A stretch of DNA of 36,551 nt from an uncultured beta proteobacterium. Lineage in GTDB: Bacteria; Pseudomonadota; Gammaproteobacteria; Burkholderiales; Burkholderiaceae_C. Each line of letters opens with the position of its first letter. The stretch's first letter is position 1. Shown in pieces: positions 30,460 through 36,551 of the stretch. The stretch is taken from contig CAIQYP010000251.1 of the NCBI GenBank assembly GCA_903876045.1, positions 1 to 36,551 on the forward strand. The letters run 5' to 3'. The position numbers and the translations under genes are program-made. Under the pieces are notes generated by a model that was given only the letters and a program-made list of their open reading frames with translations, had not been told where the DNA came from and ran no database searches.

Positions 30460-30810
30460 TTAGGTAACTGCGCTGCTTTGCCAAGCTCCATGGACCATGT
30501 TGAACTCCGTTGTAATGTCTCGGTCCCGTAGAACACCGTTCAGCTCCTTCCAACGCGCCCAAAGTCTTGCGCCTTCTAGATGCCGACCAGACTGACCAAC
30601 CAACTGAAAAACCCGGTGGCTTGCGGAAGCGCCCACACCAAGGTCCCGATCAAACATCAAAATGGCCGAGCTGACCTGGGCCAGACCCAATTCTTCCGCG
30701 TAGCCCACGAAGTGCCGCGTCCAAGGTGCATCTGAACCATACAAGGGAACTTCATATACGGACCAGTGCGTCAGTTCGACTAGCGGCTCTTTTTCATAGG
30801 TTGATGGCAT
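30460..30810 (-). CDS. Hypothetical protein, candidate SOS-regulated gene of the mobile region
   Basis: ORF start MPSTYEKEPLVELTHWSVY preceded by AAAGGAGAGATCC (SD); LexA-like box upstream is split by the IS. Confidence 0.55.
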   Translation of the reverse strand: MPSTYEKEPLVELTHWSVYEVPLYGSDAPWTRHFVGYAEELGLAQVSSAILMFDRDLGVGASASHRVFQLVGQSGRHLEGARLWARWKELNGVLRDRDITTEFNMVHGAWQSSAVT

Positions 30811-30837
30811 GGATCTCTCCTTTGTTCTGCAAATAAA

Positions 30838-30853
30838 AGTACTGTATATATAA
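30838..30853. promoter_or_regulatory. Left part of split LexA (SOS)-like box, including left TSD copy
   Basis: AGTACTGTATATATAA; joined to the right flank it gives AGTACTGTATATATAATCAGTACT. Confidence 0.7.
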
Positions 30854-30894
30854 ACGGGGTATCCCCTTAGCTCCAAGTCTGCCAGAATTGCGAT

Positions 30895-31863
30895 ATGGCG
30901 GCAAACACGGAAATTCCCAAGGCTGGACTGGACTATCCCAGGACTTGGGTGCAGTTCTTAGACTGGTTCCATTCAGAGGATGCGTGCCGCGAGTATCTGG
31001 ATAATCTTCGCTGGCCAAACGGATTCATCTGCCCGAAGTGTGGCGTAGCCGACAAGCCGTGCCGTTCCACCCGCGGTCGGCTCATGTGCTCTCATTGCAA
31101 ATTCCAAACGACTGTTACGGCTGGCACTGTCTTCGACAAGACGCGAACTGAACTACGTGTTTGGTTCGCAGGGATCTGGTACATCACCAACCAAAAGCAC
31201 GGGATCAGTGCACTTGGTTTGCAACGTGTTCTCGGACTTGGGAGTTATGAGACGGCCTGGACCATGCTGCACCGGCTACGCCGGGCCATGGTGCGTCCGG
31301 GAAGAGACCTTCTGCATGGGGAGGTCGAAGTAGACGAATCGTACCTTGCGATCACCGGCCGCAAGAACCCTATAAGTGCAGTTGGCAGAAAGAGCAACAC
31401 CAGCAAAGTGTTGGTCGCCATAGCGGTTGAAATGCTCCAGCCGAAGGGATTTGGACGGATCCGAATTAGGCAAATCCGCGAAGGTGATTCCGAGAGCCTG
31501 ATGCCGTTCATCCAGGAGACTGTTCGACCAGGCTCGCTGATTCACAGCGATGGATCGGCGGCCTACAGAAACCTCGACGAACTTGGTTACCAGCACCGTA
31601 GAACGGTGCACCTCGGATCCGACACACCGGCCCACGAGTCGATGCCTGGCGTGCACCGGGTTGCAGCACTTCTGCAGCGATGGCTACTCGGGACCCACCA
31701 TGGAGCAGTGCAGCCGGGACAGCTGGACTACTACCTTGATGAGTTTGTATTCCGATTCAACAGGCGAACCTCAGCTTCAAGAGGCTTGCTGTTCTATCGG
31801 CTGTTGCAACAGGCTGTCGTCACGGAGCCGGTGACTTATGACGTTGTTGTACAGCGGCGATGA
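30895..31863 (+). CDS. IS1595-family transposase (ISXO2-like, DDE-type) with N-terminal zinc ribbon
   Basis: CPKCGVADKPCRSTRGRLMCSHC zinc ribbon; GEVEVDESYL; IHSDGSAAY; C-terminal LLQRWLLGTHHGAVQPGQLDYYLDEFVFRFNRR. Confidence 0.93.
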   Translation: MAANTEIPKAGLDYPRTWVQFLDWFHSEDACREYLDNLRWPNGFICPKCGVADKPCRSTRGRLMCSHCKFQTTVTAGTVFDKTRTELRVWFAGIWYITNQKHGISALGLQRVLGLGSYETAWTMLHRLRRAMVRPGRDLLHGEVEVDESYLAITGRKNPISAVGRKSNTSKVLVAIAVEMLQPKGFGRIRIRQIREGDSESLMPFIQETVRPGSLIHSDGSAAYRNLDELGYQHRRTVHLGSDTPAHESMPGVHRVAALLQRWLLGTHHGAVQPGQLDYYLDEFVFRFNRRTSASRGLLFYRLLQQAVVTEPVTYDVVVQRR

Positions 31864-31864
31864 A

Positions 31865-31893
31865 TTGCTTAAAGGAAAGTTTTGTGATAGACT
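31865..31893 (+). promoter_or_regulatory. Candidate promoter for the intra-IS RNA
   Basis: TTGCTT - 17 nt - TAGACT with extended -10 TGaTAGACT; starts immediately after the transposase stop. Confidence 0.5.
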
Positions 31894-31898
31894 TGCGA

Positions 31899-31998
31899 CG
31901 AGTCGGGAGTGCTGTCCTTGTCACAGTACGTTGGGCGATTGTTCCACTCGGCTTACCAAATTCTCAAAAAGGATCGCTGCGCGATCCTTTTTTTTTTT
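31899..31998 (+). ncRNA. Candidate structured RNA upstream of the DUF3800 gene
   Basis: P1 31899-31908/31942-31950 (CGAGU-C-GGGA with UUCC-ACUCG, one bulged C, one GU); P2 31909-31915/31923-31929 (GUGCUGU/ACAGUAC, one GU); ends in intrinsic terminator. Confidence 0.6.
31966..31998 (+). terminator. Intrinsic terminator between transposase and DUF3800 gene
   Basis: AAAAAGGATCGC-TGC-GCGATCCTTTTTTTTTTT, perfect stem plus long T-run. Confidence 0.92.
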
Positions 31999-32015
31999 GG
32001 AAAACCTGGAGCTTT

Positions 32016-32777
32016 ATGTACCTGCTATACCTCGATGAATCAGGCCATTCTCACGATCCCAATTCTGAATTTTTTGTATTGGCTGGATTTAGCGTTTTCG
32101 AACGCCAAACTCATTGGCTAGATGCTGCTATCGAGCCGATAGCAAAACGATTCAATAGCATAAATTCTTCCGACATTGAATTTCATGGATCTCCAATGAG
32201 AACGGGAAAAGATGGATGGCACGGAATCCCACCATCAGATAGAGTTCAGGCTGTTGTCGATATTCTTTCCTTGCTGTCAAACAGTCAACTTAAGGTTAAA
32301 GTATTTGCGTCTGTGATTGAAAAATCACTTCTCGCTCCCGATATAATTTTGAGTCAGTCGTTTGAAAATGTAGTAACCCAATTCGATAATTATCTTGCGA
32401 CACTTTATCTAAGGAAAAATCCACAAAGAGGATTGGTTATCTTAGATAAGACATCATACGAAAGAAAATTACAAGCACTGTCTCACTTTTTTAAACATCA
32501 GGGGCATGCAAATGGAAAGCTCAGGAATTTGGCTGAAGTTCCATTGTTTTTAGATTCAAAGGCATCACGATTGATTCAAATGGCTGACTTAATCGCGTAT
32601 TGGATCTTCAGATACTACCAATCATCTGATGATAGGGGGTTCAATTTAATTAAACCATATTTCCATACATACGGCGGTGTTCAGCATGGTTTTGTGAAAA
32701 GCGTAACCCAAGCGACGGATGAACGATTAAATAATCTAACCGCATCACTGAATCCATTCCCGATTGCTACTATTTGA
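32016..32777 (+). CDS. DUF3800 domain protein, IS passenger gene
   Basis: MYLLYLDESGHSHDPNSEFFVLAG N-terminal motif, DIEFHGS, VILDKTSYE, QMADLIAYWIFR; SD-like TGGAG before ATG; AT-rich relative to the transposase. Confidence 0.85.
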   Translation: MYLLYLDESGHSHDPNSEFFVLAGFSVFERQTHWLDAAIEPIAKRFNSINSSDIEFHGSPMRTGKDGWHGIPPSDRVQAVVDILSLLSNSQLKVKVFASVIEKSLLAPDIILSQSFENVVTQFDNYLATLYLRKNPQRGLVILDKTSYERKLQALSHFFKHQGHANGKLRNLAEVPLFLDSKASRLIQMADLIAYWIFRYYQSSDDRGFNLIKPYFHTYGGVQHGFVKSVTQATDERLNNLTASLNPFPIATI

Positions 32778-32798
32778 ATATGATTATTCAAATAGTAG
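32767..32798. terminator. Perfect hairpin at the DUF3800 stop codon, near the IS right end
   Basis: CTACTATTTGAATA-TGAT-TATTCAAATAGTAG (14-bp perfect arms); stop codon lies in the left arm; no T-run. Confidence 0.7.
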
Positions 32799-32823
32799 TA
32801 TTGGAGCTAAAGGGATACCCCGT

Positions 32824-32839
32824 ATATATAATCAGTACT
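32824..32839. promoter_or_regulatory. Right part of split LexA-like box, including right TSD copy
   Basis: ATATATAATCAGTACT. Confidence 0.7.
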
Positions 32840-33514: not shown

Positions 33515-33573
33515 CAGCGTGGAAAGCCGCGCAGGGCGTAGCCCGAAGCGGATTTCCACGCTGAGCAGGTGTC
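33515..33573. repeat. Inverted repeat next to the istB remnant
   Basis: CAGCGTGGAAA ... TTTCCACGCTG, 11-bp perfect arms. Confidence 0.6.
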
Positions 33574-33883
33574 AGAACGGCACCTCCTGGTCTGATCCTT
33601 TCGGTCGCTTGGTTTGTTCCCTGGCTTTGATGCGCGACTTCGCTGTGGCTGTGCTGTGGCGGAACCTGTAGGACTCATTGCCAGTCTCCACGATATGACA
33701 GTGGTGTGTGAGCCGATCCAGCAATGCCGTGGTCATCTTCGCGTCGCCAAACACACTGGCCCACTCCCCGAACGTCAAGTTGGTGGTGATCATCACGCTG
33801 GTGTGTTCATAGAGCTTGGATAGCAGATGAAACAGCAGTGCACCACCGGCTTGGCTAAATGGCAGATAGCCCAGTTCATCAAT
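33572..33883 (-). pseudogene. istB: IstB-like ATPase of an IS21-family element, N-terminally truncated
   Basis: [68 protein letters not shown] is the IstB C-terminal half; Walker A half and istA missing. Confidence 0.88.
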
Positions 33884-33909
33884 AAATGTTGAGCTCAACA
33901 TTTATTGAT
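33878..33909. repeat. 32-bp perfect palindrome at the istB/RIT junction
   Basis: ATCAATAAATGTTGAGCTCAACATTTATTGAT. Confidence 0.9.
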
Positions 33910-33925
33910 TAATGTGATGTCCGCT

Positions 33926-34004
33926 GTAATGTGGAGTAGCACAAAAGACTGTATCGGCCATACAGGCACAAACACCGATCTTTCTGTTGACTTCTCCACA
34001 TTAC
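33926..34004. repeat. 11-bp inverted repeat at the recombinase-trio end, candidate recombinase-binding sites
   Basis: GTAATGTGGAG (33926-33936) and CTCCACATTAC (33994-34004); a related TAATGTGATG copy just outside. Confidence 0.65.
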
Positions 34005-34006
34005 GA

Positions 34007-35038
34007 TCAGAGGCGGCGAAGCCAAGCGGTGACGTTGTCGTCGTGGAAGATAAAGGCACCGCCCTTTGGCGGTGCAAGCACTTCAGGGAAGACTTGTGCG
34101 AGCGCTTGACGTTTAAGGTCGAGGTCAGCGCGCGCGTAGCGCATGGTGGTGTTTAGGCTCGCGTGGCCGAGCCATTGGCTGATGGTAGCGAAGTCCACCC
34201 CTGCCTTGAGCAGATGAATTGCAGTGGTGTGCCTCAATGAATGCGGGTGAATCCGTTTGGCGGCCAATGTCGGTTCGGTTTTTGCGCCTGCGGTGATGTG
34301 CCGCTGCAGAAGGTATCGAACACCGAAGCGGGTCATCGGGACGCCATGCGCGTTGAGGAATACGTGTCGAACAGCAGGATCGTCGTCACCATCGCGCTGG
34401 TTCTCTATCAGTTCCCACAGCAGGCGGGCAATACGCGGCCAGATCGGACAAATGCGCACCTTGTTGCCTTTGCCCGTGAAGCGGACTTGGCAGGGAGGTT
34501 CAATTCGAATATCTCGAACCCGCAGATCGACGATCTCTTGCACCCGGGCGCCGGTATTGAACATCAGCGAGAACATCGCGTAGTCCCGTCTGCCGGCTGG
34601 TGTCTTTCGATCAATGCTACCCAACAGGGCCTCGATCTCCGTCTTCTCCAGATATTCGATTGGGGTGGCCTGAGCTCCTCGTTTGAATGGAATTCCGAGG
34701 ATTTGCTGCAAGGCCGCCATTTGCTCGGGATGGTCGCTTACAAGGTAGTGAGCAAAGGTATGCATGGCGGCCAAGCGGACATTGCGGGTAGAGATGGTAT
34801 TCCCGCGCTCAGCCTCCAAGAAGGTGAGGAAGCGACAGATCCGATCGGCAGTTATGTCGGACAGTTCGAGAGATTCGATTGGCCGATGACAGTCCTTGGC
34901 GGCAAACCCAAGGAACAGAATCATGCAGTCACGATAGCTTTGAATCGTGTGACGACTCATACCGCGCAGTGTCGGGAGGTATTCCTGGAAGAAGCGAACA
35001 ACGGCACGGCCAAGTTGTGTCGGTTGATACTTCTTCAT
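34007..35038 (-). CDS. Tyrosine recombinase (third gene of trio)
   Basis: NTGARVQEIVDLRVRDI, HPHSLRHTTAIHLLKAGVD, ISQWLGHASLNTTMRYARAD; ATGA overlap with upstream gene. Confidence 0.92.
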   Translation of the reverse strand: MKKYQPTQLGRAVVRFFQEYLPTLRGMSRHTIQSYRDCMILFLGFAAKDCHRPIESLELSDITADRICRFLTFLEAERGNTISTRNVRLAAMHTFAHYLVSDHPEQMAALQQILGIPFKRGAQATPIEYLEKTEIEALLGSIDRKTPAGRRDYAMFSLMFNTGARVQEIVDLRVRDIRIEPPCQVRFTGKGNKVRICPIWPRIARLLWELIENQRDGDDDPAVRHVFLNAHGVPMTRFGVRYLLQRHITAGAKTEPTLAAKRIHPHSLRHTTAIHLLKAGVDFATISQWLGHASLNTTMRYARADLDLKRQALAQVFPEVLAPPKGGAFIFHDDNVTAWLRRL

Positions 35039-36012
35039 GATGTGGCCTCGTCAACAACACCGCCGAAAGCGGCTTCGAACCGCTCACTGGCCAGCTCGCG
35101 CATGGTCGGCACGAAGTGCAGGTAATGGGCGGTCGACACGATCGAAACGTGACCCATAAACATAGCTAGGCGGGGCAAGTTGGACTGAACGTCAGCGCCA
35201 TCGCGGTACCAGCGAATCAGAGCCTGAACGGCGAAGCTATGCCTAATGTCATGGACTCTCGGGCGACGCCCTTCGCTGTCTTTTACGTCCGCTGCGACGA
35301 ACAGGCGATTGACAGCCTGCCCCAATCCGGCACCGGTGTACCCGTGATGACCACATGCTCCACAACACACCAGTGGTGCGCAGGCCGCGGAATCAAACGG
35401 TGTCGCTAGACGTTGGCGCAAATAGACCCGCAGAGCATCGCTGGCGTCCAGTGACAGCGGCACCAGTCGCGACTTGTGGAATTTGGATGATTTGATACGG
35501 AGCAGCCCAGTCTTTGCATCAACGTCATCCAAGGTTAAGCGGACCAATTCACCACGCCGCAGTCCTGTCGTATATAGCAAGATTACGGCCATGCGCATGA
35601 CTGCCGGCAACAACGGTGAATTGCTCGTTGCCACCAGTGTGTCGGCAGCGACCAGCAGTCGCGCCACCTGCTCTGGCTCGACGATCACCGGTCGGCGATA
35701 GGGAAGCATGCGAGCGAAGTGCAGTGGATCGGGAACGAAACAGTCGGGTTCGGTGCGCTGACGGTAGCGACAGAACTTGCGCACAATCAGTTGGCGGCCC
35801 CGCCGTGTCGTAGCGGACAGCTTGCAAAAAGAATTGCACCATAGATCAAAGCCGGCCTGATCGAGATCTGCGTTGTTTGTTGTTGCGAGGAAGGCTCGTA
35901 GGTGTTTGAGAATCCACTCTGTGCCGTCGTAACTGCGACCCAGCGAACGTTGGTGCCGAAGCCAGATGGCGATCCATTGATCCAGCGGTGTTGAAGGTGC
36001 CTTCTCATTCAT
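35035..36012 (-). CDS. Tyrosine recombinase (second gene of trio)
   Basis: TTGLRRGELVRLTLDDVD, RVHDIRHSFAVQALIRWYRDG, FMGHVSIVSTAHYLH; start MNEKAPSTPLDQW. Confidence 0.9.
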   Translation of the reverse strand: MNEKAPSTPLDQWIAIWLRHQRSLGRSYDGTEWILKHLRAFLATTNNADLDQAGFDLWCNSFCKLSATTRRGRQLIVRKFCRYRQRTEPDCFVPDPLHFARMLPYRRPVIVEPEQVARLLVAADTLVATSNSPLLPAVMRMAVILLYTTGLRRGELVRLTLDDVDAKTGLLRIKSSKFHKSRLVPLSLDASDALRVYLRQRLATPFDSAACAPLVCCGACGHHGYTGAGLGQAVNRLFVAADVKDSEGRRPRVHDIRHSFAVQALIRWYRDGADVQSNLPRLAMFMGHVSIVSTAHYLHFVPTMRELASERFEAAFGGVVDEATS

Positions 36013-36551
36013 GGCCGCCTCCATTGACTGGCGCAGGCACTGGTAATGCAACCGTGCGCAACATGTCGGTGTCGACTCGCAAGTAAACACAGGTGGCCTC
36101 CAAGCTCCGATGTCCCAGCAAGTCACCAATGGCCTTGACACCGACACCACGCCGAAGCAAACGCATTGCGAAGGTATGCCGCAGCGAATAAGACGAGACC
36201 CCATCAAGAGGGAGGCCGCTCTTAATTGCCCGGTAGTTGAAAACATCGATGACACCGTAATGCTTCAGCGCTTTAATCGGGCTCCGAATGCGCAGGAATA
36301 ACTGTGGCAAATCGCAGGTCGGCCTAGCGACCGCCAAGTAACGGCGCAGTAGCCGCAATGTCCGTTCGACGAGCGGCAGAATAAGCACGGAGTGCGTCTT
36401 GCATTGTTCGACTCTTAGCGTGCCGGCCTTCCAATCGATGGAATCAAGCCGCAAGGCGGCCACCTCGGATGGGCGCAGGCCGTAATAGGCCATCAAATGC
36501 AAAATGGCATAGTCACGCCAATCTCTGGGACTTCTCCGCCGGATCGAAGCG
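36005..36551 (-). CDS. Tyrosine recombinase (first gene of trio), partial
   Basis: YYGLRPSEVAALRLDSIDW, SYSLRHTFAMRLLRRGVGVKAIGDLLGHRSLEATCVYLRVD; reading frame remains open to the window edge. Confidence 0.9.
   Translation of the reverse strand, partial: ASIRRRSPRDWRDYAILHLMAYYGLRPSEVAALRLDSIDWKAGTLRVEQCKTHSVLILPLVERTLRLLRRYLAVARPTCDLPQLFLRIRSPIKALKHYGVIDVFNYRAIKSGLPLDGVSSYSLRHTFAMRLLRRGVGVKAIGDLLGHRSLEATCVYLRVDTDMLRTVALPVPAPVNGGGHE

Follow-up and report, generated by a model that had tools for sequence, protein, structure and literature searches.

A DUF3800-VI RNA and a gene for a predicted RNase HII-like protein as cargo of an IS1595-family transposon: a candidate RNA-antitoxin module

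In type III toxin-antitoxin (TA) systems, an RNA is followed by a terminator and a toxin gene (PMC5086642). The ToxIN, CptIN and TenpIN systems have this order of RNA, terminator and endonuclease gene, and their RNAs are tandem repeats with an H-type pseudoknot. In the type III-like AbiF system of C. difficile, an approximately 100-nt RNA with an Rfam motif precedes a terminator and there is no second promoter; the toxin is neutralised by its RNA in cis and in trans (PMC12373285). Proteins of the DUF3800 family have been described as having an RNase H fold in which the catalytic residues are rearranged (PMC10910872), and occur as accessories of some V-A2 and VI-F CRISPR loci (PMC10910872, PMC12669027). 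One of the RNAs found upstream of their genes, DUF3800-VI, is Rfam family RF02915, whose entry is labelled 'Cis-reg' and gives no function. Transposons, too, can carry TA modules: in the Tn3 family, exchangeable TA cargo lies beside the transposition genes (PMC7157771).

The window analysed here, a 36,551-nt stretch of DNA from an uncultured beta proteobacterium, contains an IS1595-family element in which a DUF3800-VI RNA and a DUF3800 gene lie behind the transposase gene (Table 1). The RNA family was known beforehand, but its context as IS1595 cargo and the exchangeable slot that it occupies appear to be new; that context, the promoter and terminator anatomy, and the orphan and tandem copies described below are added here to the Rfam entry.

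Table 1. Positions of the cassette, the element that carries it and adjoining features in the window
Feature	Position	Strand	Basis or sequence
116-aa ORF of no known family	30463..30812	-	
Left 8-bp target site duplication	30846..30853	.	ATATATAA
IS1595-family element with cassette, 1,970 bp	30854..32823	+	inverted repeat arms, ends, target duplication
IS1595-family transposase, 322 aa	30895..31863	+	Pfam PF12762, PF12760; NCBIfam NF033547
Probable promoter: TTGCTT, 17-nt spacer, TGA-TAGACT (extended -10)	31865..31893	+	sequence; equal placement in relatives
DUF3800-VI RNA, RF02915, three-way junction	31900..31954	+	Rfam match, covariation
Semi-conserved single-stranded tail, about ACCNAATTC	31955..31964	+	alignment A2
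Intrinsic terminator between RNA and gene (stem 31966-31992 plus T-run)	31966..31998	+	12-bp stem; scan versus shuffles
DUF3800 protein, 253 aa, RNase HII-like predicted fold	32016..32777	+	Pfam PF12686 3.5e-21; AlphaFold2; Foldseek
Right 8-bp target site duplication	32824..32831	.	ATATATAA, exact copy of the left one
Truncated IS21 IstB fragment, then three adjacent tyrosine recombinase genes	33572..36502	-	

The element has the features of its family: an IS1595-type transposase with zinc ribbon and DDE domain, imperfect terminal inverted repeats (ACGGGGTATCCCCTTAGCTCC) and target duplications of the 8 bp expected for IS1595. No second copy was found in its own genome, which is fragmented into 578 contigs. 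ISCsp2 and ISRama1, of the same family, have transposases 67-70% identical to that of the window, similar inverted repeats and the same SOS-box target, but they carry no cargo, the slot being 56-63 bp in these elements and 942 bp in the window. Downstream, the IstB fragment and the recombinase genes suggest that another mobile element adjoins this one.

The RNA is the sole Rfam match in the window. It scores 39.9 bits against a curated cut-off of 35 and matches the covariance model over its full length (1-52), and it lies upstream of a gene with the PF12686 domain, as do other members of the family; the earlier note had pointed to DUF3800-motif RNAs, and the Rfam check it asked for thus bears this out. 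A promoter-like element with an extended -10 lies directly behind the transposase stop, where the note had placed one, and an equivalent element occurs at the same position in most relatives, but it is weak by strict consensus score and absent from the consensus-scan list. The intrinsic terminator is as described, with a 12-bp stem and a T-run that ends at about 31998, 17 nt ahead of the DUF3800 ATG (32016); a scan found one terminator where 0.2 were expected in shuffles. Since this spacing admits no other arrangement, the gene would be expressed by terminator read-through, as had been proposed. The reading frame is open through the RNA (31860-32777), but a coding start there was rejected, since conservation of the RNA and terminator is at the RNA level and alignments with relatives begin at one and the same internal start.

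The conserved fold is a three-way junction with helices P1 (8 bp), P2 (7 bp) and P3 (5 bp), of which the 9-bp bulged stem capped by a 7-bp hairpin seen earlier is a partial version. Folding energy (z = -0.68 for the isolated RNA, z = -2.31 with the terminator) does not by itself set the window RNA apart; covariation does. Across 20 sequences, 97.1% of cells are paired and two-sided changes occur in 11 of the 20 pairs, with a strong signal in all three helices. None of 500 shuffles reached the observed value for pairing or for two-sided changes, and pairing falls to 37-44% when helix partners are slid by 1-3 columns. Twelve held-out sequences, aligned with the same model, which favours it somewhat, gave 96.2% paired and two-sided changes in 13 of 20. 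Pairing of the RNA loops with the tail as a pseudoknot was no better than in shuffles, and terminator/antiterminator pairing with the RNA gave no signal (mean z -0.38).

The cassette is not specific to IS1595. All DUF3800 relatives examined that share more than about 40% identity have such an RNA upstream of the gene, and no intact gene in that range lacks an RNA of this fold; the homologues without upstream structure that would have counted against the earlier proposal were not seen there. In one viral locus (L101) the RNA was missed by the model, but by eye it has the same topology and it folds as the same junction (z -3.40); two further viral loci with partial gene matches (L102, L104) were left out of the count. 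Relatives near 27% identity (L020, L105) gave no RNA match; the one at L020 (2073-2753) lies near an integrase in a Pf1-like filamentous phage. RNA-bearing relatives occur on plasmids of Agrobacterium, Rhizobium, Paraburkholderia, Burkholderia, Pandoraea and Sphingomonas, in Pseudomonas phages, IMG/VR contigs and chromosomes, and on small enterobacterial plasmids. On the latter (L017, L110, L111; Shigella, Klebsiella, E. coli; ColE1-like where typed), a DUF3800-VI-type RNA, a terminator and a DUF3800 gene follow one another; these RNAs score 22-31 bits with model R1, and that of L017 is below the Rfam cut-off. A homologue of the protein on a ColE1-like plasmid has 230 aa. Searches of viral contigs with a single protein and with the RNA pattern gave no matches; an alignment query gave 12 loci. 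For none of the other cassette copies found, whether on a plasmid, a phage or a chromosome, was a surrounding IS1595 element recognised.

The order of promoter, RNA, terminator and gene is kept in relatives at 41-70% protein identity. In most loci, the -35/-10 pair ends no more than about 7 nt from the RNA, and the RNA ends some 51-66 nt before the start codon. A clear terminator precedes the gene in 24 of 28 loci; in L019 and L096 the T-run behind the hairpin is poor, and L091 and L099 have no terminator. The RNA is single-copy in the window and in almost all relatives, the exception being L092 (3843-3946), where a truncated DUF3800 gene is preceded by two DUF3800-VI RNAs in tandem. At seven loci the RNA is intact and the gene is absent (L004, L005, L093), truncated (L092) or interrupted (L106, L107, L108), and the orphan RNAs at L004 and L005 retain promoter and terminator.

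The suggestion that the protein is an RNase H-like nuclease had come from its acidic motifs, and structure prediction is in keeping with it. An AlphaFold2 model built with 14 sequences (pLDDT 86.7, pTM 0.89) was compared with the PDB by Foldseek, and the top 15 matches were all RNase HII or RNase H2 (probability 0.60-0.99, E 0.004-0.06, TM about 0.3-0.5). The conserved acids in the alignments are D7, E8, D124, D144 and D191; D7 (YLDESG), D144 (ILDK strand) and D191 (MADLIAY) are among the invariant ones, and E8 is invariant in alignment A1. The predicted fold together with these residues would place the protein in the RNase H superfamily. The predicted likeness to RNase HII/H2 is at the level of fold, not close homology: profile comparison (hhalign) with RNase HII of related genomes gives no alignment, and sequence-level homology to RNase HII was rejected on this ground. 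No sequence relatives were found in the PDB, and no Pfam matches other than DUF3800.

Sister elements of the IS hold different genes in the same place. All five elements with transposases at least 83% identical, that of the window included, have cargo in this slot, which runs from the transposase stop to the right repeat; elements at 60-78% identity with mapped ends have none. In place of the 942 bp with RNA and DUF3800, the slot of L084 (940 bp) holds genes for RHH, DUF433 and DUF5615 PIN-like proteins, and that of L076 (1,597 bp) holds genes for RHH-like, PIN-like and DUF29 proteins, the PIN-like call in L076 resting only on a sequence motif and partial PADLOC matches. Given these gene sets, and since experiments have shown PIN-COG2442 (DUF433) pairs to be a TA type (PMC3834315), two of the other four slots appear to hold TA modules, an association by position and in small numbers. 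The slots of L085 and L078 (449 and 494 bp) each contain a small coiled-coil gene, which does not belong to any recognised TA type. In these two (L078 2740-3280 and L085 1180-1670, oriented with the transposase forward), a promoter directly behind the transposase is followed by a leader with a conserved hairpin sequence (AAAACAYGCCCAGRGGGTTCRCCCTTTGGGYG), a gene for an 83/97-aa coiled-coil protein and what looks by eye like a terminator. Rfam gave no match for them, and these slots are possibly another RNA-protein cargo. The clade thus resembles the TA-bearing Tn3-family transposons in its exchangeable cargo; it belongs to another transposon family, and one of its cargos is an RNA-protein pair.

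Because the layout matches that of type III TA systems, and closely that of AbiF, we lean, by a modest degree, towards reading the cassette as an RNA-antitoxin/protein-toxin module of type III-like layout. The starting points are what was established directly, namely the element borders, the RNA family and fold, the terminator, the gene, the conserved linkage and the predicted protein fold; from these we infer transcription, nuclease activity, toxicity, inhibition by the RNA and a biological role. The promoter just behind the transposase would yield an abundant RNA of about 100 nt, comprising the three-way junction and terminator, and occasional read-through would give the mRNA of DUF3800, a putative RNase HII-like, metal-dependent nuclease. 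The RNA would bind and inhibit this protein, which loss of the element, or a disturbance such as phage infection, would set free. The exchange of slot contents with TA-like gene sets in sister elements suggests the same. Also on this side are the covariation of the RNA, the RNase HII/H2 fold matches, the tandem copies at L092, and the seven loci where an RNA stands with a broken or lost gene, as against no whole gene lacking such an RNA above about 40% identity.

By strict membership, the cassette is not a ToxIN, CptIN or TenpIN system. The RNA-terminator-gene order of type III systems, which start from one promoter, is present in the sequence, so that the earlier comparison with them may hold as the best fit by layout; it does not extend to a tandem array, of which L092 with its two copies is the only hint, to an H-type pseudoknot, the RNA being a three-way junction, or to the protein, which is unrelated by sequence to ToxN, CptN and TenpN. 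The likeness to AbiF (abiF-motif RNA, RF03085) covers the promoter, an RNA of about 100 nt with an Rfam motif, the terminator, a nuclease gene (putative in the cassette) without its own promoter and the phage and mobile context, but the AbiF toxin is a HEPN RNase and not RNase H-like, and its RNA differs in sequence and fold. Several points count against a TA module. DUF3800 is not a known type III toxin; there is no supported pseudoknot and the RNA is almost always single-copy; L091 and L099 lack a terminator, and the cargo of L078 and L085 is not a recognised TA. Persistence of the RNA after gene loss may reflect recent loss only, and loss of the RNA would usually remove the promoter as well.

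The main rival, which we consider unlikely, is that the RNA acts as a cis-regulatory leader at the 5' end of the DUF3800 mRNA, bound by DUF3800 itself or by a ligand, that controls read-through or translation of a protein that is no toxin. The Rfam label is in line with this, as is the strict linkage of the RNA upstream of the gene, in one orientation and with a terminator in between. However, the RNA starts directly at the promoter and the whole of it precedes the terminator, a terminator is missing at some loci, and orphan RNAs with promoter and terminator exist at two loci, although these may be recent gene losses only; the TA genes in sister slots also argue against it. Riboswitch-like attenuation by terminator/antiterminator pairing was rejected, as the terminator arm has no conserved pairing to the RNA. 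A discrete RNA rather than a switch is favoured because such pairing is absent and the promoter abuts the RNA.

It is improbable that the RNA serves a DUF3800 nuclease as guide or activating cofactor in the cleavage of foreign or target-site nucleic acid. The predicted RNase H-like fold, the occurrence of DUF3800 in CRISPR loci noted above and the mobile-element context would suit such an effector. An RNA-guided nuclease of the OMEGA or CRISPR kind, however, combines a scaffold with a variable guide, and no variable segment of guide length was found in the 20-sequence alignment (A2) or its flanks, where only the short loop of P2, paired positions and the terminator vary; the transposon-borne RNA-guided nuclease considered in the earlier note therefore finds no support. 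In addition, the place of the RNA is ahead of the gene rather than at an end of the transposon, and copies outside IS elements retain the same RNA. Least probable of all is a housekeeping nuclease of mobile elements (for example for primer RNA or R-loop removal), with the RNA as decoy or buffer and no role in addiction or defence, which the RNase HII/H2-like predicted fold and the frequency of the cassette on plasmids, ColE1-like replicons included, would allow, but against which stand its sporadic distribution (RNA in 5 of 399 phylum genomes), the often broken gene and the TA genes that sister elements carry in the corresponding slot.

Fixing the borders of these elements also showed where they insert. 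The clade follows the pattern CTGT-N8-xCAG, inside LexA/SOS boxes: of the 16 distinct elements for which both ends were mapped, 14 have CTGT adjoining the left 8-bp repeat and all 16 have xCAG adjoining the right one (ACAG in 12). The chance probabilities are about 1e-33 for CTGT and 4e-27 for xCAG, with window base frequencies and sites assumed independent. Such sites lie at 30838-30853 / 32824-32839 of the window and at L074, L073, L080, L081, L079, L076, L085, L078, L086, L036, L038, L040 and L082. Genes next to insertions encode RecA (L080), a dinB-like Y-family polymerase (L074), a UvrD-type helicase (L076), SRAP (L040), ImuA (L038, L082) and PA0069-family radical SAM proteins (L073, L081). 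In the window, the SOS-box-like site that holds the IS is upstream of the 116-aa ORF; uninterrupted relatives of this ORF (L131, L132) have intact SOS-box-like sequences upstream, one of them perfect, and the ORF is thus probably an SOS-controlled gene. A partial literature search found no published account of IS1595 insertion in SOS boxes. The targeting may be due either to a transposase that reads the sequence or to LexA or the SOS state guiding insertion.

Taken together, these features could describe an IS1595 clade that targets LexA/SOS sites and has an exchangeable addiction slot, one of whose cargos is an uncharacterised class of RNA antitoxin with an RNase HII-like DUF3800 toxin, a proposal that we hold tentatively and at less than even confidence. 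A transposon that seeks out LexA operators would represent a new type of target selection and would tie transposition to DNA-damage control. No function was found for the DUF3800 RNA motifs in Rfam, while DUF3800 proteins occur beside class 2 CRISPR effectors; if the proposal is true for DUF3800-VI, other DUF3800 RNA motifs may be antitoxins too. The TA slot of the sister transposons and the precedent of AbiF turn this into a directly testable hypothesis, that of an RNA antitoxin for an RNase H-like toxin.
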